64,000 nt of DNA from a virus: the IMG/VR virus record IMGVR_UViG_3300042987_000557, positions 1 to 64,000 of that record; one strand, written 5' to 3'. Positions 19,510 through 48,468 of this stretch are shown one piece after another. A model generated the notes under the pieces. The model was given only the letters and a program-made list of their open reading frames with translations, was not told the origin of the DNA and ran no database searches. Every line of letters starts with the position of its first letter. Position 1 is the first letter of the stretch. The translations under genes and the position numbers were made by a program.

Positions 19510-19702
19510 CGTCGTCACTCATCCTTTCTAACATATCGGCAAGATATCCTTGCACCACTGAAATTCCACGCATCACACCGCACTGAAAGCGATAATCCGC
19601 GTGGTCCTTTGCCAGCCCTTGCGCTAGAACTTCGGCTAAATGCCTCTGCTCATCACCGCAACGACTAATCAAATGCCGTAAAACTTTCTCGGTTTCGTTC
19701 AT
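19502..19702 (-). CDS. Small acidic-tailed protein (66 aa)
   Basis: MNETEKVLRHLISRCGDEQR..., helical, ending MLERMSDDDE. The start overlaps the portal stop as ATGA and the end overlaps the co-chaperonin start. No family recognised. It is translationally coupled between portal and co-chaperonin and may act in head assembly. Confidence 0.65.
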   Translation of the reverse strand: MNETEKVLRHLISRCGDEQRHLAEVLAQGLAKDHADYRFQCGVMRGISVVQGYLADMLERMSDDDE

Positions 19703-22215
19703 TTAGCCCCCTTCTTTGGCTCAACAGCCTTAGCGGTTACCTGTTCGCGTTGTTGCTGCATTGCAGCAATATTCCTAGCGATATCAGCACCAATTCGTGT
19801 GCCCTCTATCTCATTACGAACAGCTTCGACACCTGCTTGGAACTCCTGCTCCATCTGGTCTTTGACGATCTGAGCACCCAGTCGGGCACCGTCCATCTCC
19901 ATCTGTGACTGAATCCGCATACGCTCGGTCTCGATCTGGGCTGCTTTAAGTTGGGCATCCGTCTGATCTTTAGCTGCTTTGCGCTGCAATTCTTGAGCCT
20001 GAAGCTGAAGTTCTTGTTGCTGCATCTGCACAATCGGATCTTGTGCCTGCTGCTGTGCTTGGGCTTGTTGTACCATCGCCTGATTAGCTTGCAAGAGTTT
20101 CTGTGCTCCTGCGGCTGCAAGTCTGGAGATCTCGACCTCCATCTCTTCGGGCAGTTCTTCGTTGGGTGCAGGGTAGGGAACCCCGAGTTTGTCTTCGATG
20201 TTTTTACGATATTGAAAGGCAAAGTGTTGGGCAATGTGCGCCATAAATGCTGCTTGCATAGCCTGAGCGTTTGGACTCTGACCAAGAACTTGAGCAGTAA
20301 TTGGATCTTGCAGTGCTGACATATGCACTGTGATGTGTGCGGCGTGATCTTGATAGATAAACGCCTTGACCGGCTTGCCTTGGAACATGTCCATGTTCTC
20401 AGATACTGGGTCGGTCGGTTTCATATCGTCTTCCATTGGCACGAGCTTCTCGGCGTTTTTGATACCAAGAACCTCTAACATCTGCCTGTGAAGATAGGGT
20501 AAGTCGTATAACTGCGGCGCAGTAGCAGCCAACTGCATAACTGCTTGGTACTGCACAACCTTCTGACTCATTGTCGCTGCGTTTGGATCACTGACCGGTA
20601 TTACATCGACGTTGTCGTAGTCTGACTTCTTAGCCCTGGGACGACCATCAATCGGCTCGTAGTCATAACTCTCAGGTGTGTAATCAGCAATGATGGTCTT
20701 TAAGAGCCGGAACTCCTGCTTCATCGAATAGTGAATCCGCGCCTGAACAGCCGACATCACCTTCAGTGTGCGTTCTAGTATCGCTAGCGTAGTCCCAACC
20801 GGAGACTGAGCCGACATATCAGAGACTTTAAGATCAGCAGCAGAGGCAAACCTACGACCTTCATCAATAATTTTATCCATGAGTGCAGCCAACACCTGCG
20901 ACGGCTCCTTGTACGGAAGCGGCATGATGTTGTCTTTGAGAGCACCCGAGGCTATGTCCACATCGCGCCATTCAGCCGGAGCAAACGGGGTGTCATCACC
21001 CTTAGTCCGCATCCCCTTGGTCTTAAATCCGCCGGGAAGATTAGATAACGTACCTGCATCGACAAGCTGTCGAAGGATCGACGTTCCCGACTTAGCAAAT
21101 CCACCGATCAAGTGGATAAGCCCGAAGGCATAAAAGCCAAAGCCTGGAATATATGGGTAGTGGACAAAGTGCTGGCGTTTTCTCTTTAACTCGTCGTCAG
21201 GGTTCCAATTACGTCTAATCGCTAAGATCTTACTGTTTGATTTCTCAATGGTAATAACGTACGGAACAGCCAGCCCAGTCTCTTTACCATCTTCATCTTT
21301 GTCAGGAAAACCTGGGAGATCTAAGGTGACGTGCATTTCTAAGAGCTTGTACCGGTTATCGGTAGTTGCCCTGAACCCCATCTTTTCTGCAATCTTTTTC
21401 TCTACTTCATCAAGCGAATCGCTAGGATCTTCAAGCTCTACATCAACGTAGAACCCACTGTCCATTAACCGCTCCAGCTCGTTTTTAGTCTTACGCATAA
21501 CATGCGTAACACGCTCGGCTGTCTCAATATTCGCAGCCCCATAAGGAACTACAAGATCATCAGCGGAGACATACATCGCCGTCTGTCTATCAAGCCCTGG
21601 GTCAAAGTAGATTTTCTTAAACGCATTACCCGCCAGCCCCAGCCCCCACAGCATCTTCTCGTGCTCAGGTCTGTACTCGATCATCACATCAGTGAGCTGG
21701 TGGTTCATATCTGCCTGCACACGCATAGCAGACTCTTTCTTCTCTTTAGTTTCTTCGCCAATAATCTTGGTACGCACCGGACCTTGCGCTGGAAATGTCT
21801 CCATGATGGTCTCGGCCTGAAACTTCACAACAGCCTCTGTCAGCAAGGGGTGGTACACACCACAAGCCCCCGGCCAAGGCTCCGTGCGGTCCTCAACTTT
21901 TAGTCCTAATAGATCCAGCCCATCAACGTAAGTCTGCATCCAGTCTTTGCGGGACGAGATGTCGTCTTCAAAATCACTACACAGATCTTCGGCAAGGGTG
22001 GCTAACTCCTTGGGGTCCATGTCTTCGGCAAGGTTGTCGTTAAACCCTTCCTCTTCTTTTTCTTTGCCGATCACAATCTCTAGACCACCAAGACCCACTG
22101 ATACTGACTCAGGATCTTCAATCTCAATCTCGATGTCTGGCTCCATGACCAGACCTTCGTTCTGCAACCCAAGGGGTGCTTGATTTAGTGCTTTGTCAAA
22201 AAAGCTTGTAGCCAT
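19699..22215 (-). CDS. Portal protein
   Basis: 838 residues. The body resembles the portals of aquatic podoviruses: EDLCSDFEDDISSRKDWMQT, TEPWPGACGVYHPLLTEAVV, a barrel-type stretch KRQHFVHYPYIPGFGFYAFG, LIHLIGGFAKSGTSILRQLV. The last ~150 residues are a Gln/Ala-rich coiled coil, typical of a long C-terminal barrel reaching into the capsid. It follows the large terminase in order and ring-forming dodecamers are expected. Confidence 0.88.
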   Translation of the reverse strand: MATSFFDKALNQAPLGLQNEGLVMEPDIEIEIEDPESVSVGLGGLEIVIGKEKEEEGFNDNLAEDMDPKELATLAEDLCSDFEDDISSRKDWMQTYVDGLDLLGLKVEDRTEPWPGACGVYHPLLTEAVVKFQAETIMETFPAQGPVRTKIIGEETKEKKESAMRVQADMNHQLTDVMIEYRPEHEKMLWGLGLAGNAFKKIYFDPGLDRQTAMYVSADDLVVPYGAANIETAERVTHVMRKTKNELERLMDSGFYVDVELEDPSDSLDEVEKKIAEKMGFRATTDNRYKLLEMHVTLDLPGFPDKDEDGKETGLAVPYVITIEKSNSKILAIRRNWNPDDELKRKRQHFVHYPYIPGFGFYAFGLIHLIGGFAKSGTSILRQLVDAGTLSNLPGGFKTKGMRTKGDDTPFAPAEWRDVDIASGALKDNIMPLPYKEPSQVLAALMDKIIDEGRRFASAADLKVSDMSAQSPVGTTLAILERTLKVMSAVQARIHYSMKQEFRLLKTIIADYTPESYDYEPIDGRPRAKKSDYDNVDVIPVSDPNAATMSQKVVQYQAVMQLAATAPQLYDLPYLHRQMLEVLGIKNAEKLVPMEDDMKPTDPVSENMDMFQGKPVKAFIYQDHAAHITVHMSALQDPITAQVLGQSPNAQAMQAAFMAHIAQHFAFQYRKNIEDKLGVPYPAPNEELPEEMEVEISRLAAAGAQKLLQANQAMVQQAQAQQQAQDPIVQMQQQELQLQAQELQRKAAKDQTDAQLKAAQIETERMRIQSQMEMDGARLGAQIVKDQMEQEFQAGVEAVRNEIEGTRIGADIARNIAAMQQQREQVTAKAVEPKKGAK

Positions 22216-22224
22216 GATCTATCC

Positions 22225-23751
22225 TTAATAGTAGGCGTACTGCTGACGCCCCTTGAAGTAAACAACAGGATCTGCTTCGTCGGAAGGCAAACGCAAAAAC
22301 CCGCCATTTCTAAATCGCATTAACGCAAGTGTCGTAGCATCCACCAAATCGTCATGCTCGCCCGACGGAAAACTGGCTATTTCATCGACAAGTTCATCAG
22401 CCCATCGAGTATTTGGCACCCATACTTTCCCAGATGCAATAATGTCAGACACTGCGTTCAGCCGTGTGATCTTATCGTTACCCTTACTTGGCGTAAACTC
22501 TTGAACCGGCACGCCCATTCTACGTAATTCTTGATACAACGATATACCAGAAGCTTTTTTCTCGACAATTAACGAGTCTGGCTCCCATTCGTTGTACTCT
22601 TCAAGCACCTTTTTCTTAAGCTGGTGAAACTCCATCCGGTCTTTAATGACATTCAACAATATGATGTTGTTTATGGCGTTGTCTTCTTCGTTAACCCACA
22701 CACCCCACGTTGTACATGCAGAAAAGTCTGCGCGGGTGGTCGTTTCAAACGCAGTATCCCAAGATTGGATGATGTAATCGCACCTTGGCGGCTCATCTTT
22801 ATCCCAACGCTTCCACCATTCGCGTTTAACAATAGCGCCTTCTTCAGCCGTTGGGTTTTGCTGGTACTGAGCCTGCCATTTACTATTAGGCAGTTCTTCC
22901 CGAAGCGCAGAAAGCTCGTCCAACGACCAAAATTCAGGCCAAAGCGGGTTCCCAGAGGGCAAAATCGCTGGAAATTCGATGACTTCCCAGTCATCTCCAC
23001 CCCTTTGAGTGCTTGATTTGACAACTTGACCGGTTAAGTCACGCAAACCCCATCGAGTCATCACTACAATAATAGAACCACCCGGTTGTAGACGCTGTCG
23101 CGGGCCTGACGTGTACCACTCGTACACCTTATCGTATATTTCTGGCGAAGATGCAGCTAGTGCTGCCTCTTGTTCTGAGTGCGGGTCGTCAATAATCAGC
23201 AAATCGGCACCCTTACCGGTCACCGCACCCCCTACACCAATAGCAAAATACTCACCCGCCTTGTTTGTGTTCCATCTACCGGCAGCTTTTGAGTCTGCTT
23301 GCAGTGAAACACCGGGGAAAATGTCTGAATAAACGTCGGAATCGACAAGATTTCGCACTTTTCGACCAAATCCGACCGCTAATTCAGCCGTATGGGCCGT
23401 TTGGATCACTTTTTTGTTGGGGTATTTACCTAAAAACCAAGCTGGCAGCAGATAAGAAGCGAACTCTGACTTGGTATGCCGAGGTGGCATGTTAATAATA
23501 AGGCGTTTGATCTCACCTTTTGCTACTTTTTCAAACGCTCTAGCCATCCTCTTGTGGTGCTGACCCTCAATAAATGTAGGCCATACCCGCTTTACGAAGG
23601 TCATAAAGTTGGATGAAGCAACTTCCCTAGCCTTTAACCTTTCGTGCTGAGTCAGATCCGCAAGCAGCGAACGTAACTGTGCTTCAGGTAAGTTCGGTAA
23701 GTTCTTTAACAATAGCTGTAGCTTCTGAACTTCTTGTGGGTTCGTCTGCAT
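22225..23751 (-). CDS. terL: Terminase large subunit
   Basis: 508 residues from the ATG at 23751. Reading from an upstream ATG at 23805 would add 18 residues and a longer overlap with the small subunit. The ATPase part has INMPPRHTKSEFASYLLPAW (Walker A region) and ADLLIIDDPHSE (Walker B). The RNase H-like nuclease part has IIQSWDTAFETTTRADFSA, DSLIVEKKASGISLYQELRR and FPSGEHDDLVDATTLALMRF, with the expected Asp residues. This is the TIGR01630-type (psiM2 ORF9-like) nuclease end. It packages DNA through the portal. Confidence 0.92.
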   Translation of the reverse strand: MQTNPQEVQKLQLLLKNLPNLPEAQLRSLLADLTQHERLKAREVASSNFMTFVKRVWPTFIEGQHHKRMARAFEKVAKGEIKRLIINMPPRHTKSEFASYLLPAWFLGKYPNKKVIQTAHTAELAVGFGRKVRNLVDSDVYSDIFPGVSLQADSKAAGRWNTNKAGEYFAIGVGGAVTGKGADLLIIDDPHSEQEAALAASSPEIYDKVYEWYTSGPRQRLQPGGSIIVVMTRWGLRDLTGQVVKSSTQRGGDDWEVIEFPAILPSGNPLWPEFWSLDELSALREELPNSKWQAQYQQNPTAEEGAIVKREWWKRWDKDEPPRCDYIIQSWDTAFETTTRADFSACTTWGVWVNEEDNAINNIILLNVIKDRMEFHQLKKKVLEEYNEWEPDSLIVEKKASGISLYQELRRMGVPVQEFTPSKGNDKITRLNAVSDIIASGKVWVPNTRWADELVDEIASFPSGEHDDLVDATTLALMRFRNGGFLRLPSDEADPVVYFKGRQQYAYY

Positions 23752-24328
23752 TAACTGATTCCAGTAGACCAAGCTCTTCGGTGATGCTAACCGGCTGTAC
23801 GTCAATCACGTCGTTACCGAGCATTCTGTGAATTTTGTCCTCGATAGCTTTACGCAAATCATCGGACGTACGGTGGGTAATCGTAATTTCTGATTTTTCA
23901 GTGAATGCACCGACATCAGACATTTTGCCAAGCAGCTCTAAGGCACGCAGCTCATCTTTAGCTACGCCGCAACTAGAAAGCTCTAGAAGACGATTAGTTA
24001 TAAACGTACGGACTTGAACTGCATCAGTTACTACTTGCTTATCATAAGCATCAAGTAACGCTGCTAATTTAATAGACACCGCCCCGTCGTATAGAGCAGG
24101 TGGGTTATGCCCGTCCTTTTCTTCGCCTTTCTTTTTGTCAAACTCTTGAAAAAGCTTTCTAGCTTCCTCTTCGTCGCTCTCAGTCATTTCAAAGGGCATA
24201 CCCAGCTCAACCATCAAAGACGCTGAATTTGCAGCCGCCCTTGCGTTTTCACGCAACGTATCTGCATTCTGATCCTTAAATGATTTAGGTACGGGGTGCT
24301 CTTTGTTTGGCGTAATAGTAATAGGCAT
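23684..24328 (-). CDS. terS: Terminase small subunit
   Basis: 214 residues. KLAALLDAYDKQVVTDAVQV, RALELLGKMSDVGAFTEKSE and RKAIEDKIHRML are the pattern I know from small terminase subunits of aquatic podoviruses. It is the first gene of the late block, starting ~50 nt after a good promoter, and overlaps terL by 68 nt. It would recognise the packaging site and recruit TerL. Confidence 0.75.
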   Translation of the reverse strand: MPITITPNKEHPVPKSFKDQNADTLRENARAAANSASLMVELGMPFEMTESDEEEARKLFQEFDKKKGEEKDGHNPPALYDGAVSIKLAALLDAYDKQVVTDAVQVRTFITNRLLELSSCGVAKDELRALELLGKMSDVGAFTEKSEITITHRTSDDLRKAIEDKIHRMLGNDVIDVQPVSITEELGLLESVNADEPTRSSEATAIVKELTELT

Positions 24329-24823: not shown

Positions 24824-25486
24824 TTACTCCTCACTATCGGTATCAACATACTGGCTCAGGCAGTCATGTACTTCACGTAACACTTCCACGTTACGCTGGG
24901 CAGATAACATGCTCCTTATCTCCTCCTTCAATTGCTTTATCTCCTCTGCAAGCTCAGCCTTTTCTCCACTGGCTTTAACTCTTGCTATTTTCTTAAGCTC
25001 CTTGATTTTCTTTTCAGCAGCCTTATCACTGGGGGCTTTTGCGAGCTTCTCATATTGCCTTTCGATCTGCTGCATGATCTGGGGCAGATCCTGATCCTGA
25101 TACTTCTCCTCCAGTTTAGCTAACTGAGCTTTTCTCTCCTCAGCCTTCTTCACTGCTGCTGCACTAGTACTCTTGGGTTTATCGATACCGTAAAGCTCAC
25201 TGAGATACTTAGCAAAACTGTTAAAAGCTTTATCTCCCGCATTGGCCGTGGTATCGGGCTTAATCGAGTGATACCCTTCAACCCATTTCACTCGCATGCT
25301 TTCCCACTGGATGAAAGTAGGATTAGTGCCAAGCGCTTTTGCGTAACTCTCAGCACTGCTAAGTCTATCAAGACTAGTGCGAGCTTCTTTTGCTCCCGCA
25401 TCAAAAGCGGCAGCATTCTGATCCTCTGAGAGGATCAGGGCGGGGGCTGCAACCACTGGGGCTGCTACAACAGGCTTTTTACCCAT
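24824..25486 (-). CDS. Early protein of unknown function, paralog A (220 aa)
   Basis: N-terminus Ala/Pro/Val-rich (VVAAPVVAAPALILSEDQNA). Residues ~55-130 (MRVKWVEGYHSIKPDTTANA, FAKYLSELYGIDKPK, AAAVKKAEERKAQLAKLEEK) align with the 188-aa protein at 25691-26257. The C-terminus is a long coiled coil ending in acidic TDSEE. Driven by its own promoter with a 27-bp dyad over the start point, so probably autoregulated or regulated together with paralog B. I do not recognise the family. Confidence 0.7.
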   Translation of the reverse strand: MGKKPVVAAPVVAAPALILSEDQNAAAFDAGAKEARTSLDRLSSAESYAKALGTNPTFIQWESMRVKWVEGYHSIKPDTTANAGDKAFNSFAKYLSELYGIDKPKSTSAAAVKKAEERKAQLAKLEEKYQDQDLPQIMQQIERQYEKLAKAPSDKAAEKKIKELKKIARVKASGEKAELAEEIKQLKEEIRSMLSAQRNVEVLREVHDCLSQYVDTDSEE

Positions 25487-25517: not shown

Positions 25518-25544
25518 GACAATCTGAGCCGATCTCAGAAAGTC
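25518..25544. promoter_or_regulatory. 27-bp dyad element 1 (over promoter start of paralog A)
   Basis: Arms GACAATCTGAG (25518-25528) and CTCAGAAAGTC (25534-25544) with spacer CCGAT. This is the most divergent copy, but the change at the inner edge is symmetric (C to G and G to C). Its right edge lies 6 nt from the leftward -10 box, so it covers the expected +1. Confidence 0.6.
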
Positions 25545-25550
25545 AAAGCA

Positions 25551-25559
25551 ATTATAGCA
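25551..25559 (-). promoter_or_regulatory. Extended -10 promoter of paralog A gene
   Basis: Leftward: TGC then TATAAT, 65-70 nt before the start codon at 25486. No clear -35 box. Same design as the paralog B promoter. Confidence 0.6.
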
Positions 25560-25623
25560 AATGGGATTTTTCTATCAGCGTAGAGAGTCTACTAATGACT
25601 GGGAAAAAACCAGGAAATCCAGA

Positions 25624-25651
25624 GGGAACGGTCATGTCAACGAGGTAGCCT
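25624..25651. repeat. 28-bp direct repeat, left copy
   Basis: Starts GGGAACGGTCATG and ends GAGGTAGCCT. It is identical over 28 bp to 26372-26399, and the two flank the paralog B gene with its promoter and terminator (unit spacing 748 bp). Confidence 0.9.
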
Positions 25652-25673
25652 AAAAAACCCGCTTTCGCGGGTT
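25652..25673 (-). terminator. Rho-independent terminator of paralog B gene
   Basis: Leftward: AACCCGC, GAAA loop, GCGGGTT, then a T run (stem 25656-25662/25667-25673). It is 17 bases past the stop codon at 25691 and abuts the 28-bp repeat. Confidence 0.85.
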
Positions 25674-25690
25674 CGCTGGGTTTCGCTTGG

Positions 25691-26257
25691 CTACTTGAGC
25701 AGACTGATCGCCTTGCGAAGTTTCGCTGGGTCGTCGCATGCCTTGACCAACTTTGATACGTCGGCACGAAGCGACTTGAGCAAAGTCGCCTGCTCTGCTT
25801 GTTCGTCCTTGGTTTTCGCCTTGAGCACTGCTTTGAGTTCGTTGATCTTGCGATCATCAAGCGCAGGGTTTTTTGCTTGCGCCTCGTACTGCTTGCGAAG
25901 CATGTCCGTCAGTTCGGCTGGCGTCGCATGCTCGTACTGCTTGAGCAGTGCTTCGTGCTTTGCTGTCCTTTGCTCACGTTTCTTGGTCGCGGCTTTGCTT
26001 GGTGCTTGTGGCACTGTGATTGCATACTTGGCGACCAGTCGGTCCTTGAATCGTTTCCATGCTTGGTCGCTCGCGTCGCCTTTGGTGTTCGGCTTGCGGC
26101 TGACGTACGCATCAACGAACACAGTCCGGCATTCAACGAAATGCTCGTACGTCGGCTTGTCGCCAATATGACGTGCGCCGATTTCGAGTGCTTCGTCGGC
26201 ACTGGTTTCGCTGTCAGCGAACAGTTTACCTGCTTGAATCATCGCTTCGTTTTTCAT
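25691..26257 (-). CDS. Early protein of unknown function, paralog B (188 aa)
   Basis: Start at the ATG 26257, where AAGGGAAAC lies upstream; an ATG 39 nt earlier would start inside the dyad-proximal leader. The N-terminal half (ADSETSADEALEIGARHIGD, FVECRTVFVDAYVSRKPNTK, FKDRLVAKYAITVPQAPSKA) matches paralog A. The C-terminal half is coiled coil (MLRKQYEAQAKNPALDDRKI...). It forms a self-contained cassette: own promoter, operator and terminator, bounded by direct repeats. Family not recognised. The related layout in other phages would suit an early host-takeover or regulatory protein, but that is a guess. Confidence 0.7.
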   Translation of the reverse strand: MKNEAMIQAGKLFADSETSADEALEIGARHIGDKPTYEHFVECRTVFVDAYVSRKPNTKGDASDQAWKRFKDRLVAKYAITVPQAPSKAATKKREQRTAKHEALLKQYEHATPAELTDMLRKQYEAQAKNPALDDRKINELKAVLKAKTKDEQAEQATLLKSLRADVSKLVKACDDPAKLRKAISLLK

Positions 26258-26275
26258 GCTGTTTCCCTTTAGTAG

Positions 26276-26302
26276 GACACTATGACCCCATGTCATAATG
26301 TC
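26276..26302. promoter_or_regulatory. 27-bp dyad element 2 (over promoter start of paralog B)
   Basis: Arms GACACTATGAC (26276-26286) and GTCATAATGTC (26292-26302), spacer CCCAT. It ends 5 nt from the leftward -10 box and so covers the transcription start, the same geometry as element 1. Confidence 0.75.
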
Positions 26303-26307
26303 CTTAA

Positions 26308-26316
26308 ATTATACCA
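26308..26316 (-). promoter_or_regulatory. Extended -10 promoter of paralog B gene
   Basis: Leftward: TGG then TATAAT. The GTATGGTAT context is shared with the rightward promoter (TATGGTATCAT). No convincing -35. It is followed at once by dyad element 2. Confidence 0.65.
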
Positions 26317-26371
26317 TACGCTGGTATCAAGAAAAAACAACAAAAAACGGAAAAACGAAGAATTCTCTGGG

Positions 26372-26399
26372 GGGAACGGTCATGTCAACGAGGTAGCCT
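26372..26399. repeat. 28-bp direct repeat, right copy
   Basis: Identical to 25624-25651. It stands upstream of the paralog B promoter, closing the 748-bp cassette. Confidence 0.9.
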
Positions 26400-26413
26400 T
26401 TGTCGCCCAGTTT

Positions 26414-26450
26414 GTTCGGCGTTAAGCTGCGTGGCAGCTTAACGCTTTTT
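26414..26450 (+). terminator. Hairpin with T run, left copy
   Basis: A perfect 12-bp stem, GCGTTAAGCTGC / GCAGCTTAACGC (26419-26430/26434-26445), with GTG loop followed by five T. It is a strong rightward intrinsic terminator, but no rightward gene precedes it. A ~53-bp imperfect direct repeat containing it recurs at 26816-26868, on the other side of the putative origin. Confidence 0.75.
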
Positions 26451-26468
26451 CGCTCGCGTGTCAAGCAC

Positions 26469-26495
26469 GACAAACTGACGCGCCGTCAGGTTGTC
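26469..26495. promoter_or_regulatory. 27-bp dyad element 3 (edge of origin region)
   Basis: Arms GACAAACTGAC (26469-26479) and GTCAGGTTGTC (26485-26495), spacer GCGCC. It lies between the left hairpin and the left arm of the large nested dyad. Confidence 0.8.
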
Positions 26496-26501
26496 CCGAC
26501 C

Positions 26502-26787
26502 TATTGTATGAATGTAGTGAAAAAATAGATAATGTAGTACGTAATTGTAGTGTCGTAAGTACTTGATTTTAAATAATGTATGTTTTGTAGTGCGTTTTTG
26601 GCCGAAAAAAGTCGTTTAGGCAAATTATTTGAGAAGACGAGCAAGCTCGGCACAATCAAAGCAAAAATCGGTTTTACCCCCGTAGGTCGTTAAAACGCAC
26701 TACATCGTCTACATTCTCTACAAAGCCCGTAGATCAAGGGGTCCAGCTATATACTTTATAATAAATATTTACTACATTCATACAATA
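26502..26787. other. Putative replication origin: three concentric inverted repeats with TGTAGT iterons
   Basis: Outer pair, 17 bp perfect: 26502-26518 / 26771-26787. Middle pair, 13 bp perfect: 26586-26598 / 26692-26704. Inner palindrome: CGAGC-AA-GCTCG at 26638-26649. All share a centre at 26643.5-26645. TGTAGT occurs repeatedly in the left half (26513, 26533, 26545, 26586) and as ACTACA in the right half. The stretch is A/T-rich, holds no convincing gene and lies between divergent early operons. It could be a replication origin or a complex operator; no functional proof in sequence. Confidence 0.55.
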
Positions 26788-26799
26788 CAAAAAATAAAA

Positions 26800-26851
26800 A
26801 ACGCCGGACTCGGAAGTTCGGCGTTAAGCTGCGAGCAGCTTAACGTTTTTT
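26800..26851 (+). terminator. Overlapping hairpins with T run, right copy
   Basis: A stem at 26821-26832/26835-26846 (11 bp plus a wobble pair) is followed by six T, copying the left hairpin. A second stem, AACGCCG...CGGCGTT (26800-26826), shares bases with it, giving mutually exclusive folds as in an attenuator. No rightward gene lies upstream, so a short untranslated RNA from the origin region is possible. Confidence 0.6.
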
Positions 26852-26922
26852 CGTTCGTCTGTCAAGCGTCTTTTCGCCCCTTTTTTCAAGGCTTTTTGTA
26901 TTGTATGAAATTGGACACTAAC

Positions 26923-26951
26923 TTGACTTTGTTAAGAAAGTATGGTATCAT
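26923..26951 (+). promoter_or_regulatory. Rightward early promoter
   Basis: TTGACT (26923-26928), 17-nt spacer, TATCAT (26946-26951) preceded by TGG (extended -10). A GATGC-GTA-GCATC palindrome (26953-26965) covers the expected start point. The third copy of TATTGTATGAA (26899-26909) lies just upstream. It should drive the rightward early operon. Confidence 0.75.
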
Positions 26952-27053
26952 TGATGCGTAGCATCGATGAACAGAACACAACAACTCCAACTTACAACAT
27001 CCCCGAAAGGGGGTGAGTCGGTGCTCGTCCACACGTCATCAACCGGAGTTCAT

Positions 27054-27323
27054 ATGCAACAAGACACCAAGCAAGACAAACTGACGGTCAGTCAGAATGT
27101 CGCCAAGAACGGCTACTGCCGTATCTGCCGAGTCAACGGCATCGGTAAGAAGCGAGCCAAGTACGGACACCTCATCTGCAAACCATGCGGTGAGCGCAAA
27201 TCCCAAACCGACCGCAAGTCGTGGTGCGTAGTCCAGCCCTACGGCAAAGGTGGCTACCAGTTTGTCACTGCAACCTCAGCTTTTGAGGTCGTGCGACAAA
27301 CCAACCAGAAGCACATCAGATGA
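27054..27323 (+). CDS. Small zinc-ribbon protein, first rightward early gene
   Basis: 89 residues from the ATG at 27054, chosen over an ATG at 26967 because GGAG is 5 nt upstream. GYCRICRVNGIGKKRAKYGH followed by LICKPCGE forms a treble-clef or ribbon with two CxxC pairs. The rest is basic (KSQTDRKSWCVVQPYGKGGY). The leader holds a CCCC-GAAA-GGGG hairpin (27001-27012). It could bind DNA or RNA polymerase, but no family is recognised. Dyad element 4 lies in its first codons. Confidence 0.7.
   Translation: MQQDTKQDKLTVSQNVAKNGYCRICRVNGIGKKRAKYGHLICKPCGERKSQTDRKSWCVVQPYGKGGYQFVTATSAFEVVRQTNQKHIR
27075..27101. promoter_or_regulatory. 27-bp dyad element 4 (in coding sequence)
   Basis: Arms GACAAACTGAC (27075-27085) and GTCAGAATGTC (27091-27101), spacer GGTCA. 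The central arm bases are A-A opposite A-A, so RNA pairing would be interrupted. Confidence 0.8.
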
Positions 27324-27370
27324 AGTGGAGTTTTTGTCTTTTTTAATGTTGTTTAACTAGGAGCGTATCA

Positions 27371-27424
27371 ATGAAGATCAAAACGAGTGAGTTACTAGTG
27401 GTGAAGAAGGGGGTGAAAGAATGA
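27371..27424 (+). CDS. 17-residue mini-gene, possible remnant of a DUF2591-type gene
   Basis: MKIKTSELLVVKKGVKE with AGGAG seven bases upstream and an ATGA overlap with the next start. The first eight residues are the typical opening of DUF2591 phage proteins (MKIKTSELTG...), after which similarity ends. It may be a truncated remnant retained for coupled translation of the next gene. Weak evidence. Confidence 0.4.
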   Translation: MKIKTSELLVVKKGVKE

Positions 27425-27645
27425 GAATCAAAAAGACGTTCTACAAAGCTAGGCGCAGAACAGTGCGCCAAATATTCGCGTGGGCGTTAGCCAAACCCAA
27501 GCGCGAGTACCCAAAGAATAGGCGCGACAAAGAGTGGCTGAAGTTATTGCCCAAACCTACACGCCGACAGACAGTGGGTTACGTGCGAGCGTTCGTCGGT
27601 CCGCATTTCTTTGCGGGGTGCTACGACGGTGCAGAGTTTGATTGA
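27421..27645 (+). CDS. Small, very basic early protein (74 aa)
   Basis: MRIKKTFYKARRRTVRQIFA... rich in Arg and Lys, with Trp-containing helices and the end FVGPHFFAGCYDGAEFD. Start overlaps the mini-gene stop (ATGA). Nucleic acid binding would fit its charge; family unknown. Confidence 0.65.
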   Translation: MRIKKTFYKARRRTVRQIFAWALAKPKREYPKNRRDKEWLKLLPKPTRRQTVGYVRAFVGPHFFAGCYDGAEFD

Positions 27646-27656
27646 GGAGAACGACG

Positions 27657-27842
27657 ATGAAGAAGTACAGAGCAGTTGTCGAACTGCGAACCAAGGACAA
27701 CAAGACTACGGTTTTGAGGTTCCACAGCCTCAGCTTTTCTGAAGCTAAGGCATTCCAGAAGTTGTTTGATAAGTTTGACCACATCTACAGCGATGCAGAT
27801 CTGGTCATGCACATGTGGGAGCAAGTCGGTGAAGATAACTGA
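27657..27842 (+). CDS. Small early protein (61 aa)
   Basis: ATG at 27657 with GAGGAG eight bases upstream. MKKYRAVVELRTKDNKTTVL starts with a beta hairpin, followed by FSEAKAFQKLFDKFDHIYSD and a charged end. Compact alpha/beta protein of unknown family. Confidence 0.65.
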   Translation: MKKYRAVVELRTKDNKTTVLRFHSLSFSEAKAFQKLFDKFDHIYSDADLVMHMWEQVGEDN

Positions 27843-28098
27843 CGTGCCGAACGATGCGTTCAACGCTGAACCTACACCAGTACCGACAAGGGTGGTGCCT
27901 GACTGGGACGCGTTGTTAAAAGTGCTTGAGGTCAAAGGCTTTGTGGTGCTTGAGTCCGACGATCTACGCATCACAGCTACGGGCGAGGAAGCACCGCCAG
28001 TAAAAAACTTCAACAACTTTGTGCGTACGACTCGGCGTAAGAAGTTGTTTACCAAACGAATAACCCGCACACGTTGGGTGTGCGTACTAGGAGAGTGA
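27829..28098 (+). CDS. Small early protein, GTG start (89 aa)
   Basis: A GTG at 27829 with GGGAG seven bases upstream gives MKITDVPNDAFNAEPTPVPT.... A short alpha/beta segment follows (WDALLKVLEVKGFVVLESDD) and then a very basic tail (RTTRRKKLFTKRITRTRW). It overlaps the previous gene by 14 nt. Unknown function; the basic tail suggests nucleic acid contact. Confidence 0.6.
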   Translation: MKITDVPNDAFNAEPTPVPTRVVPDWDALLKVLEVKGFVVLESDDLRITATGEEAPPVKNFNNFVRTTRRKKLFTKRITRTRWVCVLGE

Positions 28099-28099
28099 A

Positions 28100-28330
28100 A
28101 TGGAACTGAGAGATCACTTTGCAGGACTTGCCATGCAAGCCATGATGGAAATGTACCGAGAGATGTACGAGGAACACAACATCTTTGAAGGTTGGGTCGA
28201 GGATGCTATGCCTTCACTTGCCATGCAAGCCTACGAAATGGCTGACTTCATGCTGATTGCACGAGGGAAACGACGAACCTTTGCAAGTAACCGTGGAACA
28301 GAAATAATTTTTGGGGAGGGCGAAGAATGA
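28100..28330 (+). CDS. Small conserved phage protein (76 aa)
   Basis: MELRDHFAGLAMQAMMEMYR... PSLAMQAYEMADFMLIARGK. This 'LRD.FAG.AMQ...AY..AD.ML.AR' pattern is widespread in small phage and prophage proteins from Gram-negative hosts. Function not known. GGAGAG precedes the start. Confidence 0.7.
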   Translation: MELRDHFAGLAMQAMMEMYREMYEEHNIFEGWVEDAMPSLAMQAYEMADFMLIARGKRRTFASNRGTEIIFGEGEE

Positions 28331-28407
28331 ACGACGAGCATGTGTTTGTAGCAATCGTGGCTTGCGCCTGTGCGCTTGCCGTACTCATTGGACTAGGAAT
28401 TATTTAA
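28327..28407 (+). CDS. Mini membrane protein (26 aa)
   Basis: MNDEHVFVAIVACACALAVL followed by IGLGII: a single hydrophobic segment almost filling the protein. Its ATG overlaps the preceding stop (ATGA) with GGGAGGG upstream, and it ends directly before the next ATG, so it is properly placed for translation. A membrane micro-protein; role unknown. Confidence 0.55.
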   Translation: MNDEHVFVAIVACACALAVLIGLGII

Positions 28408-28662
28408 ATGAACAAGATAGATATGCTTCGTAAGTACAAAGCCATCATCAAGCAGATGGCAGATTTCGAAGAAAACATGAAGAAAGTGCTCGCGCATCCA
28501 GACGCGACCGAGCAGCAAGTAATGCAAGTTGTACATCAATGGCGCGACATTATGACAAAGCGTCAGATTGTCGAGAACATGATCAATAAAAAATGGGGCA
28601 ACACAGTGAAGGACGGAAAGATTGTTTCTGTCCACTCATCATACTTATCGTTTCTAAACTAG
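28408..28662 (+). CDS. Small helical early protein (84 aa)
   Basis: MNKIDMLRKYKAIIKQMADF..., helical through ~65 residues (EENMKKVLAHPDATEQQVMQ), then a short beta end (TVKDGKIVSVHSSYLSFLN). Starts immediately after the mini membrane gene. Dyad element 5 is embedded in the codons for RDIMTKRQIVE. Unknown function. Confidence 0.65.
   Translation: MNKIDMLRKYKAIIKQMADFEENMKKVLAHPDATEQQVMQVVHQWRDIMTKRQIVENMINKKWGNTVKDGKIVSVHSSYLSFLN
28546..28572. promoter_or_regulatory. 27-bp dyad element 5 (in coding sequence)
   Basis: Arms GACATTATGAC (28546-28556) and GTCAGATTGTC (28562-28572), spacer AAAGC. Its left arm shares the C-to-A change seen in element 2. Confidence 0.75.
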
Positions 28663-28671
28663 GAGATAGTC

Positions 28672-29652
28672 ATGCAATTAGGTGGTGCTAATTTACCAAC
28701 GCTCACGTCATACGACCAAGCCGAGCGTTGGTTTGAGAAGATCAAGCCGTTCACTAATGCCAGTAAGTTGTACGCTGGCATGCGTCCACTCGGTGCTCGC
28801 AGTTACACACAGTGTTTGATCCGCAAAGATGCAGTGACAAATGCCATTGTGCTAACGCTGTATGGATACCCTGTCGTTACATTCAGGACCGATGGAACTA
28901 TCGTGATGAACGCACACGCCTATCACACGGCGACTACGGTGTCGTTCTTTCAACGGGTACTGCAAGGCCGACAACTGCGTGGTTTTGCGAAAGTCAGGAG
29001 TGTCATCCATGTGCTTGTGAGTGCCGGAAGCGAAGGCACACATTGGTTCCCTCTACCCACGTCGGGGGATCTGGTGTTTGATACGGGAACCGAAAGGATT
29101 CTTGATGTTAAGCCGATACACAAGTATCGAGCGAACGTAAAAGAAACGAAAAGGATGCTCGGTAACTACGAAGCGTTTCTGTCGTACTGCAAGACAGCAC
29201 TGGCACTCTTGGCTGACCACAAAGGAAGGTGTGATCAAGTAGAGGCTCACGTCAAGCTATCTAAAGCTATGCTTGATACGAGCTGTGACTACACAGATAC
29301 AGACGAGTTCTGTAGGTTCTATTCGTTTGATATCAAACGAGATCCACAGAACGCAAGAGTCCGTCGAACACGTTTCTTCAATACGCTAGACAAAGCACTG
29401 GTTACCGACAACCACGAGATGATCTATCTATTGTTCATTCGGCTATGTGCCTCGATGGAGATGCGGTACTTTAGATACGACGATTTGAAGCAGTTGTTTA
29501 TAAACCTACTGAAGTTTCAGTATCCCCATTTACTTTTCAGACTAGAGGAGGTTCAACCAACAACACACGTAGTACACAACCACAACGCCGTATTCGTACG
29601 CTACTGCGGTGATAACGCTCTTATCGAACAGATCAACAATGGGACAAACTGA
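28672..29652 (+). CDS. Conserved early protein of unknown function (326 aa)
   Basis: The N-terminal third contains a beta-rich region reading 'Y..CLIRKDAVTNAIVLTLYG..VVTFRTDGTIVMNA', the rest is helical with several Cys and His. It resembles phage proteins that 'format' local variables near MoxR modules, but I cannot name it. AGGAG precedes the start. Its stop codon lies inside the left arm of dyad element 6. Confidence 0.65.
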   Translation: MQLGGANLPTLTSYDQAERWFEKIKPFTNASKLYAGMRPLGARSYTQCLIRKDAVTNAIVLTLYGYPVVTFRTDGTIVMNAHAYHTATTVSFFQRVLQGRQLRGFAKVRSVIHVLVSAGSEGTHWFPLPTSGDLVFDTGTERILDVKPIHKYRANVKETKRMLGNYEAFLSYCKTALALLADHKGRCDQVEAHVKLSKAMLDTSCDYTDTDEFCRFYSFDIKRDPQNARVRRTRFFNTLDKALVTDNHEMIYLLFIRLCASMEMRYFRYDDLKQLFINLLKFQYPHLLFRLEEVQPTTHVVHNHNAVFVRYCGDNALIEQINNGTN

Positions 29653-29669
29653 CTCATCGTCAGAATGTC
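29643..29669. promoter_or_regulatory. 27-bp dyad element 6 (at gene end)
   Basis: Arms GACAAACTGAC (29643-29653) and GTCAGAATGTC (29659-29669), spacer TCATC. Both arms are identical to those of element 4. It overlaps the stop codon of the 326-aa gene. Confidence 0.8.
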
Positions 29670-29707
29670 TACAACAATTACACATCAACTAGGAACTAGG
29701 AAACAAA

Positions 29708-30769
29708 ATGGAAATCAGACTCAACACCGAAGTATCCCTTCAACAAGCCGAGGAGTTGATCCTCGCTATCGGCAACACAAACGCTGTCCACTTAGTTGGT
29801 CAGCCAGGCATCGGCAAAACAGCTATGGCTTCTCGCCTAGCAAAACGCACAGGGTTTCGCTTGGTCTACATCGATACGCCGACAACAGATCTAGGCGATC
29901 TGGGTGTGCCGATGCCTGACCGCGAAACGCAGACTACCATGCTGTACCCCAACCAACACTGGGGATTCCACACAGGCGAGCCGCTTGTGATATTCATCGA
30001 CGAGTTTTCCAAGCCGTCGTCCCAAGCTGTGCAAAACATGTTGCATCCGCTCCTTCATGAGCGGCGGATCGCTGGCTTTAAACAGCACAAGGATACCATC
30101 GTAGTCACAGCAGGTAACAACTCCACCGACGGGGTTGGTGACATGATGAAGTCACACAGCATCAACCGCATGACGGTGGTGCCCATCGCTAACCCGACAG
30201 CCGAGAGCTACATCGAGTACGGGGCTGAAAAGGACTTTGCACCTGAGCTTCTTGCATGGGTCAAGGCATATCCACACTGCTTGGCATCGTACAAAGATCC
30301 GACGCAAGCGGAGAACCACATGATCTTTAATCCGAAGTACCCGCAACGGTCATACTTCTCCCCGCGCTCGGGCGAGAAGGCAAGCAACATCATCAAAGCG
30401 CGGGCCATGTTTTCGCGCGATACGCTGATATCCGCGCTGTGCGGGACCATCGGTGATAACGCAGGGCGTGACTTGGTTGCTTACGTCGAGGTTGCTGACT
30501 CGCTCCCAAGTTGGGAGTCGATACTGCATGATCCTGCGACAGCAAAGATCCCCACATCCCCTGCGGCTCTGTGCATCATGGCTTACGGTGCAGTGCAGAA
30601 AATTGATCGGGGCAATATCAACAAGTGGTTTACGTATCTGAAGCGCACACCGAAAGAGTTGCAGTCGGTGTTCAGTATCACAGCAGCAAAGAACAAGGAC
30701 AAGCGCGACATCCTGTTCACAAGCGGCGCATTCGTCCAGTGGATGCGTGAGAACCAGTACCTTTTCTAG
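29708..30769 (+). CDS. MoxR-type AAA+ ATPase
   Basis: 353 residues with Walker A GQPGIGKTA (31-39), Walker B LVIFIDEF, and sensor 1 TIVVTAGNNSTD. The fold is that of MoxR/RavA-group AAA+ ATPases, which work as chaperones with von Willebrand A partners. The next large gene encodes such a partner. The phage target (metal insertion, complex remodelling, host protein disassembly) is unknown. AGGAACTAGGAAACAAA precedes the start. Confidence 0.85.
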   Translation: MEIRLNTEVSLQQAEELILAIGNTNAVHLVGQPGIGKTAMASRLAKRTGFRLVYIDTPTTDLGDLGVPMPDRETQTTMLYPNQHWGFHTGEPLVIFIDEFSKPSSQAVQNMLHPLLHERRIAGFKQHKDTIVVTAGNNSTDGVGDMMKSHSINRMTVVPIANPTAESYIEYGAEKDFAPELLAWVKAYPHCLASYKDPTQAENHMIFNPKYPQRSYFSPRSGEKASNIIKARAMFSRDTLISALCGTIGDNAGRDLVAYVEVADSLPSWESILHDPATAKIPTSPAALCIMAYGAVQKIDRGNINKWFTYLKRTPKELQSVFSITAAKNKDKRDILFTSGAFVQWMRENQYLF

Positions 30770-30778
30770 GAGGAAAAC

Positions 30779-30985
30779 ATGGAGAAGGAAAGGCGAGTAC
30801 TCAGCGAGATATACGACATCTTGGATTCAAACGGCATAGAGCTAGATATGCAAGTACACATACTTGCATCAATCATATGCGCTAACGCTCAGGCTGATGG
30901 CGTGCCTCTCAATGACTTGATTAGCTTCTTTAGTACCAAGGCAACATTACTTTATTCAAACGAGGGTAGTAAACATGCAAAATAA
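30779..30985 (+). CDS. Small protein between MoxR and VWA genes (68 aa)
   Basis: MEKERRVLSEIYDILDSNGI..., helical with a Ser/Phe-rich middle. AGGAGG is optimally placed, and the end overlaps the VWA gene start by 11 nt. Possibly an accessory of the module; no family recognised. Confidence 0.65.
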   Translation: MEKERRVLSEIYDILDSNGIELDMQVHILASIICANAQADGVPLNDLISFFSTKATLLYSNEGSKHAK

Positions 30986-32276
30986 ACTAACCGTCGAGCA
31001 ACGCATCGAGCGTTGCCATGTCCAGTTGATGAAAGACAAGAACTACTGTCTTTTCTCTGGCATCTTTATGATCGGCAAAGTATCCGTGACGGATGATCCG
31101 TTCATGACTGCGGGGACCAACGGACGCGATGTTGTCTACGGTCGCCAGTTCATGGAGCGGCTCAACGATAAGCAGATCAACTTCGTGGTTATACACGAGG
31201 CTATGCACAAAGCATATCGTCATATGACAACGTGGAAAGCGTTATCTGATGAGAATCATGCACTTGCAAATGCGGCGATGGACTACGTGATCAATCTACA
31301 GATCGCTGATGCCGACACCGAGAGCAACATGGTGGAGTTCCCGACAGATGAGGACGGTAACAAGATCGGTCTTATCGACGAGAAGTATCGTGGTATGGAC
31401 ACCAAACAAGTGTATGAGCTTTTGAAGAAAGAGTTCAAAGAGATCGATGGTGACAAGCCGCGACGTGGAGAAGGCGGGTCGGGGGGTAGTGGACAACCTG
31501 ACAATCCGTCAGATCGTCGCCGCAGTAAGCCTTCGTCGGGTGATGGTGGCGGCAAAGAAGAGATGGAGCGCAGACAGCACGACAAGCATGACTGGGAGAA
31601 TGCTGAGAAGCTCGACGAGGAGGAGAAGAAAGAGCTTGAGCGTGACATCGACCATGCCTTGCGTGAAGGTGCTATCTTGGCAGGGAAGCTCAAAGGCAAC
31701 GTGCCACGCGGCATCGATGAGCTTCTGCATCCCAAAGTAGACTGGCGTGCGGCACTGCGTGAGTTCCTCAAGTCTGCGATGCTAGGCCGAGACCAGACTT
31801 CTTGGCGTAGGCCGAACCGTCGCTTCATCGGTATGGATATCGTCATGCCCATGCTCATCAGCGAGAAGGCGCACACCTTCGTCAACGGCATCGACACATC
31901 AGGTTCTATCGGTGGCGAGCCACTGAACCAGTTCGCCTCTGAGGTGAAGTCGATCTGTGATGAGCTGATGCCTGAAGCAATGGAAGTTCTGTACTGGGAT
32001 ACGGCAGTCGCACAGCATGAGACTTATCGCGGTGCAGAGATCGCTAACTTCTGGACTGATACTAAGCCCAAGGGTGGTGGCGGGACTGATCCTGATTGCG
32101 TACCAAAGCACATCAAGGAGAAAGATCTTAAACCACAAGCGATCATCATGCTGACCGACGGTTACTTCTACAAGCATGACGCGCAAGCGTGGGAAGGATC
32201 TGCACCTGTGCTGTGGTGCGTGATCGGTAACAAGAACTTCCAGCCCAAAGTAGGCTCGGTTGTTTACGTCGAATAA
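30975..32276 (+). CDS. VWA-domain protein with N-terminal metallopeptidase-like region
   Basis: 433 residues. N-terminal part has a zincin motif HEAMHKAYRH (~75-84), as in the metallopeptidase-like domain paired with DUF2201. A Gly/Ser/Glu-rich charged linker follows (~155-225). The C-terminal VWA-like domain has the metal-binding DTSGSIG motif (~309-315), a conserved Thr (GGGGTDPD) and MLTDGYF. This is the classic partner of MoxR ATPases; here the pair forms a phage chaperone/protease module. Dyad element 7 is in the linker codons. Confidence 0.85.
   Translation: MQNKLTVEQRIERCHVQLMKDKNYCLFSGIFMIGKVSVTDDPFMTAGTNGRDVVYGRQFMERLNDKQINFVVIHEAMHKAYRHMTTWKALSDENHALANAAMDYVINLQIADADTESNMVEFPTDEDGNKIGLIDEKYRGMDTKQVYELLKKEFKEIDGDKPRRGEGGSGGSGQPDNPSDRRRSKPSSGDGGGKEEMERRQHDKHDWENAEKLDEEEKKELERDIDHALREGAILAGKLKGNVPRGIDELLHPKVDWRAALREFLKSAMLGRDQTSWRRPNRRFIGMDIVMPMLISEKAHTFVNGIDTSGSIGGEPLNQFASEVKSICDELMPEAMEVLYWDTAVAQHETYRGAEIANFWTDTKPKGGGGTDPDCVPKHIKEKDLKPQAIIMLTDGYFYKHDAQAWEGSAPVLWCVIGNKNFQPKVGSVVYVE
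31492..31518. promoter_or_regulatory. 27-bp dyad element 7 (in coding sequence)
   Basis: Arms GACAACCTGAC (31492-31502) and GTCAGATCGTC (31508-31518), spacer AATCC. It lies in codons of the low-complexity linker of the VWA protein. Confidence 0.75.
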
Positions 32277-32292
32277 GAAAGTTTTTAACCAC

Positions 32293-32319
32293 GACAATCT
32301 GACATCCCGTCAGATTGTC
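32293..32319. promoter_or_regulatory. 27-bp dyad element 8 (intergenic, perfect)
   Basis: Arms GACAATCTGAC (32293-32303) and GTCAGATTGTC (32309-32319), spacer ATCCC: the only copy with fully complementary arms. It lies in the gap between the VWA gene and the 287-aa gene. Confidence 0.85.
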
Positions 32320-32339
32320 TCAACTAGGAGTAGTACATC

Positions 32340-33203
32340 ATGGAACACATAGGTATTGAAACAAGCGCGATGCTCATCGAGTTGAACATCTCCACTTGGA
32401 CGGCTCGTAAGCTGGATAAGAAAGTATCACAAGAAGTTGATCAACAGAACGAAACGAAGATCAACGCTGGCAACTACCACAAGAACTTGCTTGCTGGTCA
32501 GAACGCACTCGATGCGTGGAACAAGTACTCGGCTCGCATCCGGCTTTGGTATAACCAGCAGACACTTCCTTGGGCCGACAAGGGTCCACGGCTTCTTACA
32601 TCTCAAGTATTCATGGACGGCTTCAAGGTTAGACTCGACGAGCATCATCAGAACTGGCTTCGCCTGCGAGACAACTTCGAAGTTAGCTACGAGGATATGG
32701 TCTCTGCGGCGGCGTTCTCGCTCGGCAAGTTATTCAACCGTGAGGACTACCCACCGCTAGAGGATGTGATGCAGAAGTTTTCGTTCCGCTACGCCTTCTC
32801 GCCTGTGCCGACATCGGGGGACTTTCGCATCGACATAGGCCATCAAGCTCGCAAAGAGTTGGAAGCCATGTACGCGCAGACTACTACTAACCGTGTCAAC
32901 ACCGCGATGCGTGAAGTATGGGATCGGCTTCACGAGTGCCTGACACACATGTCCGAGCGGCTTGCTGATGATGAGGACGGCAACCGCAAAGGCTTTCACT
33001 CTACGTTGATAACAAACGCAGTAGAGCTTGTGGATATGTTGGACAAACTAAACGTCACACGAGATCCGCAGTTGACCCATGCTCGCAAGGAGTTGGAGCG
33101 GTCGCTGTACAACATCAACGCCGACACGGTTAAAGAAAGCGATCAAGTGCGTGAAGGACTCAAGAAGAAAGTCGATGACATTCTGTCACGCTTTGACTGG
33201 TAA
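32340..33203 (+). CDS. MoxR/VWA-module protein, DUF3150-like (287 aa)
   Basis: The N-terminus (SAMLIELNISTWTARKLDKK) and the long helical body resemble DUF3150 proteins that accompany phage MoxR/VWA pairs, a link drawn from memory. The end is coiled coil (HARKELERSLYNINADTVKE, GLKKKVDDILSRFDW). No catalytic motif; probably a substrate adaptor or assembly partner of the module. Confidence 0.55.
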   Translation: MEHIGIETSAMLIELNISTWTARKLDKKVSQEVDQQNETKINAGNYHKNLLAGQNALDAWNKYSARIRLWYNQQTLPWADKGPRLLTSQVFMDGFKVRLDEHHQNWLRLRDNFEVSYEDMVSAAAFSLGKLFNREDYPPLEDVMQKFSFRYAFSPVPTSGDFRIDIGHQARKELEAMYAQTTTNRVNTAMREVWDRLHECLTHMSERLADDEDGNRKGFHSTLITNAVELVDMLDKLNVTRDPQLTHARKELERSLYNINADTVKESDQVREGLKKKVDDILSRFDW

Positions 33204-33213
33204 GGAGATAAAT

Positions 33214-34110
33214 ATGTTTAAGATCAAGATCGATACGAAAGTAGGGGCAGCTCAAATGGAAGTGGCGCCCCCGCTTATAAATGTGCTGTTACGCGCATAC
33301 AACCAGATCCCTTCGCTACAGTTTGAGGTGTTGCGTGAGAACACTGATGAGCTAGTGGAGGTAGATGGCGATAAGTACTACCGCACAGTAACTGTTATCC
33401 AAGGCTTTCAACAGCTTGGCACAGTGTCGTACAAACGCCGACACCACCGTGGCGAGGATAAGCTGACGTTTGCTGTTTCTTGCGACAACATCAAGAAGAA
33501 GCGCGGCAACAGAAACGCAGTGGTAACTGAGCATGCTAGCACTGCTACCAAAAAGATCATCGAGTTCTTCAAGCCTAAGCAAGTTGATCTGCTTGGTAAG
33601 GAGGTATACGACGACGTGCGTGCCGCTATCCATGATATTCACTGGAGAGCACAACGCGACATGCTCTATTCGTACAACCGACAAGATGAAGTAACCCCGC
33701 TAGCCGTTGGCTTCATCATCGATGTTATGGATAGCAACGGTTCAGAGTTACCAAAAATTCCTGAGCTATTCAAGAGTATCGTCACTGACAAACTACGCGA
33801 GTCATGGCATACCTACGAGATCGTCTACGATCTGTTCGAATCGTTTGCGAAGTGCCATGCAGTAGCTATCAAGCACATGCGCGACGGTTCGTATCTGCTA
33901 GTAGACAAGATGGTTCACGGTAACTCGAAGCAGTACATCACAAGTCACTTTCCTAGTAGGGAAGATATTGTACAGCCGTACATGGACAAGGTATCTATGC
34001 TTCAGTTCACTGAGGTGAATCAAGCAGTACGCAATGTAGGCATCCGCATGAAATGTGGCGACGGAGATCTTTACGTCATCGTAAACGGTGATATAATCAC
34101 AGACTCCTAG
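33214..34110 (+). CDS. Early-operon protein of unknown function (298 aa)
   Basis: Start at the ATG 33214 with AAGGAGAT seven bases upstream; longer frames upstream overlap the previous gene. MFKIKIDTKVGAAQMEVAPP begins a mixed alpha/beta protein with a basic patch (GTVSYKRRHHRGEDK; NIKKKRGNRNA). It is the last gene before a terminator, so it closes the early operon. Not recognised. Confidence 0.65.
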   Translation: MFKIKIDTKVGAAQMEVAPPLINVLLRAYNQIPSLQFEVLRENTDELVEVDGDKYYRTVTVIQGFQQLGTVSYKRRHHRGEDKLTFAVSCDNIKKKRGNRNAVVTEHASTATKKIIEFFKPKQVDLLGKEVYDDVRAAIHDIHWRAQRDMLYSYNRQDEVTPLAVGFIIDVMDSNGSELPKIPELFKSIVTDKLRESWHTYEIVYDLFESFAKCHAVAIKHMRDGSYLLVDKMVHGNSKQYITSHFPSREDIVQPYMDKVSMLQFTEVNQAVRNVGIRMKCGDGDLYVIVNGDIITDS

Positions 34111-34155
34111 TTGAGACAAGTGAGCAGAGCACTCTAACTCTGCGTTTCCTTTCGG

Positions 34156-34192
34156 GGGACATTCTGACCATTCGTCAGTTTGTCCCTTTTTT
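34156..34192 (+). terminator. Terminator of early operon built on 27-bp dyad element 9
   Basis: Dyad arms GACATTCTGAC (34158-34168) and GTCAGTTTGTC (34174-34184), spacer CATTC. The arms are extended outwards by GG/CC and followed by six T (34187-34192), making an intrinsic terminator (with a two-base internal mismatch) 46 bases past the last stop codon. It ends the dyad-bearing segment of the genome. Confidence 0.75.
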
Positions 34193-34205: not shown

Positions 34206-34234
34206 TTGCGTTCCTCCAAACATTAGACTATACT
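34206..34234 (+). promoter_or_regulatory. Promoter of the replication operon
   Basis: TTGCGT (34206-34211), 17-nt spacer, TATACT (34229-34234), directly after the early terminator and 23 nt before the VRR-NUC start. It would let replication genes be read independently of the early operon. Confidence 0.6.
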
Positions 34235-37150: not shown

Positions 37151-37154
37151 TCAC

Positions 37155-48442: not shown

Positions 48443-48468
48443 CCCCCGCCTGTGTGCGGGGGTTTTTT
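48443..48468 (+). terminator. Terminator of the rightward replication operon
   Basis: CCCCCGC, 6-nt loop, GCGGGGG (48443-48449/48456-48462), then six T. It stops rightward transcription at the junction with the convergent 2851-aa gene, whose stop codon overlaps its T run. Confidence 0.9.

Follow-up and report, generated by a model that had tools for sequence, protein, structure and literature searches.

Operators dispersed over a phage genome are known from several systems. The L5-type (cluster A) mycobacteriophages are described as carrying many copies of one site in promoters and short intergenic spaces, where they are proposed to stop both initiation and elongation (PMC9283540). In SPbeta, dispersed intergenic repeats termed SPBRE were later shown to be the sites of one master repressor, MrpR (PMC10516654). 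Phage P1 has 22 operators for the C1 repressor, dispersed over its genome (PMC8546580).

Here we describe a conserved, clade-specific array of dyads at fixed places in a ~9-kb gene block, including predicted leftward start points. As in the cited account of L5, multiple copies lie in promoters and between genes, and as with SPBRE the repeats are dispersed. The form of the site differs. The L5 sites are given in that account as 13-bp, asymmetric, and oriented with transcription, SPBRE is described as a 15-bp motif in promoter regions, and the C1 operator is reported as 17-bp, asymmetric, and widely spread; the site described here is a 27-bp dyad with two-fold symmetry, confined to a 9-kb block.

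Nine Dyads in One Gene Block

The window analyzed is a 64-kb stretch of a linear virus record of 70,501 bases (70.5 kb), which may be incomplete. It contains nine copies of a two-fold symmetric 27-bp dyad with the consensus GACAwwCTGAC-N5-GTCAGwwTGTC. Together they span 8,667 bp (25518–34184). In a first scan the weakest of the nine scored 28.6 and the next best position 14.4. With a weight matrix built from relatives, the nine score 20.6–34.4 of 35, and no other position in the window reaches 12; applied to a background of 0.95 Mb of reversed relatives, the same matrix gave zero matches at a score of ≥14. The remainder of the 70.5-kb record has no further dyad at up to 3 mismatches, and the reversed pattern, searched over the record at the same tolerance, does not match at all.

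Gene labels used below (g1, g2, r7, r8, r10–r13, and r16) are working labels, and ORF starts were set mechanically. Leftward genes include those for a phage portal-like protein of 838 aa (19699–22215), the large terminase (22225–23805), and two paralogs, g1 (24824–25486, minus strand, 220 aa), to which no family was assigned, and g2 (25691–26257, minus strand, 188 aa), predicted to be all-helical (pLDDT 92.5). The predicted paralog structure has a long C-terminal helix. Foldseek returned nothing from PDB or BFVD at E ≤ 0.001, and VIA-align, used as a follow-up, reached no more than intermediate Z values, for helices. On these grounds we rejected a known DNA-binding fold for the paralogs, which is no proof of a new one.

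The rightward block runs in the order zinc-finger gene, r7, r8, r10, r11, and r12. Its first gene (27054–27323, plus strand) encodes an 89-aa zinc-finger protein (C-x2-C ... C-x2-C) that is conserved together with the dyad array. A DksA-like zinc-finger PHROG is matched by 3 of 23 members of its family, and the structure model is poor (mean pLDDT 67.5). Gene r7 (28672–29652) is followed by r8, an AAA ATPase (29708–30769; PF07728), and r10, a DUF2201 metallopeptidase/VWA protein (30975–32276; PF13203, PF09967) with distant relatives in 595 named phage records, including LUZ7 ("N4 gp25-like protein"). The products of r11 and r12 could not be aligned with those of Pag-Yong1 genes at a like place. 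Beyond r12 lie a nuclease-like protein (r13), a family A DNA polymerase, and other replication genes. Elsewhere in the window we noted degenerate G-rich direct repeats (GGCAGGCTAGGTGAGGTCGGGT) at 39747–39875, after an ORF ending at 39531; a leftward gene of 2851 aa (48467–57022) with a C-terminal match to a DarB-like antirestriction PHROG; and TGTAGTACCCCC tandem repeats (62231–62484) inside a leftward gene of 941 aa.

The dyads take up distinct positions with respect to these genes. The first (25518–25544, minus strand), the most deviant of the nine (3 of 16 fixed bases differ), and the second (26276–26302, minus strand) lie at the predicted +1 of g1 and g2, respectively. The third (26469–26495) is intergenic, with divergent genes on either side, and the fourth (27075–27101) is separated by 21 nt from the zinc-finger ATG. 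Farther along, the fifth (28546–28572) falls within an ORF (28408–28662), the sixth (29643–29669) covers the r7 stop codon ahead of the r8 ATG (29708), and the seventh (31492–31518) is within r10, in a glycine-rich linker. The eighth (32293–32319), with perfect 11-bp arms, is directly ahead of the r11 ATG (32340), and the ninth (34158–34184, plus strand) forms a rightward intrinsic terminator stem at the end of the block.

Dyads at the Predicted Leftward Start Points

The original prediction held that both paralog genes have an extended −10 box followed after 5–6 nt by a dyad, and the minus-strand coordinates bear this out. The boxes are of the TGnTATAAT type. That of g1, TGCTATAAT (25551–25559, minus strand), matches 10/12 with CTGATA at a spacer of 16 and ends 6 nt before the dyad; that of g2, TGGTATAAT (26308–26316, minus strand), has no good −35 and ends 5 nt before it. 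Location of the dyad at the predicted +1 of both promoters is likewise supported, and the placement is conserved in relatives.

A −10 box ending 5–8 nt before the dyad occurs at 11 of 19 nonredundant dyads beside paralog-family starts, versus 3 of 129 rightward sites (Fisher p 2e-9), where "beside" means at most 45 nt from the paralog start, a cut chosen after viewing the list, and where the set of 19, like the set of 22, includes the window's own sites and the relatives are not independent. Another 14 nonredundant relatives carry the dyad farther upstream, at more than 45 nt from the paralog start, and none of these 14 has such a box. The "identical geometry" that had been claimed is therefore common but not universal, and the upstream dyads count against the operator reading. 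There are thus two classes of paralog dyad, one with a conserved +1 geometry and a second with the dyad upstream. Among 53 paralog genes (51 from loci and 2 from the window), a dyad was found in the search range in 42 and none in 11. When loci were collected through the paralog protein, 12 of 14 showed a −10 box (≥4.5 bits) 4–9 nt before the gene-side dyad, several of these being contigs already in the earlier set and many not independent. The −10 matrix and the Shine-Dalgarno patterns were entered by hand. Taken singly, promoter predictions in the region (10, against 11.1 expected) do no better than chance, so the significance of the boxes rests on their conservation. That these leftward promoters are early is something we infer.

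Upstream of both paralog promoters lies a 28-bp identical direct repeat (GGGAACGGTCATGTCAACGAGGTAGCCT; 25624–25651 and 26372–26399), close versions of which (GGCTACCGCGTTGGAATGACCGTTC, leftward strand) are found upstream of the paralogs in many relatives. Two near-identical rightward terminator-like hairpins (26418–26446 and 26820–26847) are intergenic, ahead of the zinc-finger gene, and may end small RNAs.

The other seven dyads had been placed inside or at the ends of rightward transcripts, and this needs amendment at two of them. The best rightward promoter, TTGACT-17-TATCAT (26923–26951), lies ~430 bp downstream of the dyad at 26469, which is therefore probably outside any rightward transcript, and the dyad at 34158 is part of a terminator stem.

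Conservation of the Array in Related Viruses

The exact dyad pattern occurs in at least 119 IMG/VR contig stretches, at least 49 of which have two or more copies. When 22 chosen longer records were searched whole, 17 had three or more sites (≤2 mismatches) and 5 a single site, with zero matches to the reversed pattern in all 22. In the 11 multi-site records whose sites were all listed (G001, G002, G004–G007, G009, G013, G015, G021, and G022), the sites span 2.8–8.6 kb. Across the 17 multi-site records, the array co-occurs with a Cro-like helix-turn-helix (HTH) protein in 16, the zinc-finger protein in 14, and the paralogs in 11; the misses are contigs with the array near the contig end, and those without paralogs appear to end before them. 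The five single-site records have neither paralogs nor the zinc-finger protein and yielded one weak HTH match; their dyads are probably due to chance. DSL-LC04 and Pag-Yong1, named relatives by portal similarity, have no site scoring above 11.5 in 50 kb each. We found no description of the dyad in searches of open-access papers on stoperators, roadblocks, repeated palindromes, and lytic-phage operators.

It is very improbable that a host regulator, borrowed by the phages, is what binds the dyads. The phages do have the site in common; across 257 Gb of genome sequence from 84,980 prokaryote species, however, a stricter form of the pattern matched just 3 times, with one site per stretch. The three copies, from Shimia (L128:2159-2185), Rhodococcus triatomae (L129:3375-3401), and a Rhodospirillales bin (L130:5975-6001), are isolated and near-perfect.

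Relatives repeat the same arrangement (sites scoring ≥16). The recurrent places are beside the paralogs, in the gap between paralogs and zinc-finger gene, around the zinc-finger gene, before r7, at the r7/r8 junction (21 site rows), inside r10, before r11, and between r12 and r13. Beyond the two classes of paralog dyad, the remaining sites form a single conserved set of one kind. The r10 dyad, the most informative of them, always lies in the same reading frame, in the glycine-rich linker. In 26 distinct sequences, its third-codon consensus bases A, T, C, G, A, and T are present in 26, 26, 25, 24, 26, and 26, respectively, and position 24, a first-codon base, varies. Among full-length r10 loci fetched by protein, those at ≥54% identity have the site in 22 of 23 cases and those under this value in 0 of 20, a count that leaves out 6 partial loci of 49, 3 of which have the site. 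These third-codon bases, invariant or nearly so, and the empty background refute, for the multi-site records, an origin of the dyads as chance repeats or coding by-products, the occurrence of single-site contigs (5 of 22 records) notwithstanding.

At some loci, both half-sites carry matched changes, such as TGAG...CTCA. Two in-gene dyads (L213:1024-1050 and L194:1027-1053) have the inner half-sites CTTCC/GAAAG in place of CTGAC/GTCAG and perhaps reflect a regulator of changed specificity.

DNA Sites and Possible RNA Hairpins

A palindrome may be read in DNA or folded in RNA, and we compared base pairing in 151 distinct exact sites from multi-site stretches with that in shuffles. Watson–Crick pairs are fewer than in shuffles at positions 5–23 (51 vs 60.2, z −1.6) and 6–22 (25 vs 45.2, z −3.9) and more numerous at 7–21 (84 vs 71.5). 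Because 5–23 and 6–22 pair less than shuffles, an RNA stem does not appear to be kept at most sites, and we therefore read the dyads as DNA operators. On these statistics an RNA hairpin was rejected as the general function and retained for two places, the leftward starts and the terminator.

On the transcribed strand at the leftward start points, G–U is favored over C–A among the deviations (20 vs 3, p 5e-4; 16 vs 2 in 16 nonredundant sites), and there is a tendency toward ATNGG in the 5-base spacer; a pure DNA operator predicts neither. Rightward nonterminator sites give a G–U:C–A ratio of 50:70 (Fisher vs start-point sites, p 6e-5), and eight further start-point sites give 6 vs 2, not significant alone; shared ancestry can inflate all of these counts. 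Since the deviations keep G–U pairing, the dyad may also act as an RNA hairpin at leftward starts. Strong folding is seen for dyads 2 (z −4.8), 8 (z −4.3), and 9 (z −6.2), and the one wobble in the dyad 2 hairpin is U–G on the transcribed strand.

At the end of the block, dyads between r12 and r13 run into a T-tract in 21 of 34 distinct sites, with pairing raised there, and the window's own dyad at 34158 folds as an intrinsic terminator stem. These observations, together with the many intergenic dyads directly ahead of a ribosome-binding site, would also suit an array made up mainly of mRNA hairpins, serving as 5′ stabilizers, translational operators, or processing sites, the terminator being one example among them. 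We consider that account unlikely. There is no general pairing excess outside start points and terminator; in r10 the bias is reversed (C–A 13 vs G–U 2), the site folds no better than shuffles, and the loop is not conserved. The identity of the arm bases is kept although compensatory pairs would suffice, and a search of Rfam gave no match.

Given the start-point pairing bias and loop and the terminator stem at 34158, not all dyad function need be at the DNA level. One palindrome might have two uses, as a DNA operator throughout the block and as a selected RNA hairpin at +1 or before a T-tract, a combination that we hold to be rather improbable. If it were true, a single regulator could act on initiation, elongation, the transcript 5′ end, or termination.

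Past the terminal dyad is a promoter-like sequence, TTGCGT-17-TATACT (34206–34234, plus strand), ahead of the nuclease/DNA polymerase block. In many relatives the dyad-terminator is followed by a TATACT box that has a TTGC-type −35, and whole-promoter scores there reach 9 or more in 20 of 44, only somewhat higher than the 24% of shuffled controls. The replication genes seem to have their own promoter beyond the dyad-terminator.

This layout bears on whether the dyads are centromere-like, replication, or DNA-organizing sites of a phage protein such as the helical paralogs, promoter overlap then being autoregulation. Dispersal of the sites, one of them within a gene, would suit such a role, as would predicted helical proteins with a long C-terminal helix that have the dyad at their own promoters. 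We nevertheless judge this role unlikely, given that the sites follow gene boundaries and the terminator and end where the next promoter begins; in addition, no ParB_N domain was detected in the possibly incomplete record (control positive in 10 of 14).

Candidate Regulator

The best candidate for a regulator that binds the dyads is the Cro-like HTH protein of 78 aa encoded at 45046–45282 (plus strand). It is favored because, of two HTH families compared, it alone is present in nearly all multi-site records and because no named phage matches it at E ≤ 1e-3; its family was also absent from the three related named phages searched. The second family, a winged-HTH protein (r16, 37152–37559), was rejected, being present in only 5 of the 17 multi-site records. 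The assignment of the Cro-like protein is weak, because co-occurrence with the array is comparable for the zinc-finger protein and the paralogs. No dyad lies at the HTH gene, and thus there is no sign of autoregulation. HTH sequences showed no relation to the base at operator position 7.

Proposed Mechanism

We regard it as an even proposition that the dyads are operators in DNA for one sequence-specific, phage-encoded regulator that shuts the block down. As it accumulated, such a regulator would occupy all dyads. Bound over +1 to +27, it would block initiation of leftward g1 and g2 transcription, and at the dyads in the rightward operon it would hinder polymerase, as a roadblock or "stoperator". 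The block would then be shut down, and the replication genes would stay on from the promoter past the terminal dyad-terminator. Seen in this way, the array resembles a phage switch that would damp the entire block in one step. Control of initiation and elongation by one regulator, as in the original prediction, is a plausible proposal. Those in the rightward operon would fit roadblocks and could have other DNA-bound roles too.

Comparison with Known Dispersed Operators

Beyond the form of the site, the array can be compared further with the systems introduced above. Unlike in the account of L5, one dyad is kept within the linker of a coding region and another forms part of a terminator stem. 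An L5-type repressor has an HTH and a stoperator domain; the candidate HTH protein here has just 78 aa. L5-type phages are temperate, and MrpR is reported to have a tyrosine-recombinase-like fold; searches of the linear and possibly incomplete record for the integrase and resolvase domains PF00589 and PF00239 gave no match, although a diverged PF00589 domain could be missed. We do not file the array with L5, SPbeta, or P1, because its site is symmetric and 27 bp long and because searches of the record for integrase, resolvase, and ParB domains gave no match.

If our reading is right, a clade of phages known from metagenomes alone would share a compact regulatory array whose symmetric site persists even within a protein linker and a terminator. 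The dyad offers a marker for recognizing relatives and finding their regulator, and the array lets one ask whether phages without recognizable lysogeny genes silence a gene block in stoperator-like fashion. By analogy, the array would work like the dispersed operators of L5, SPbeta, and P1.
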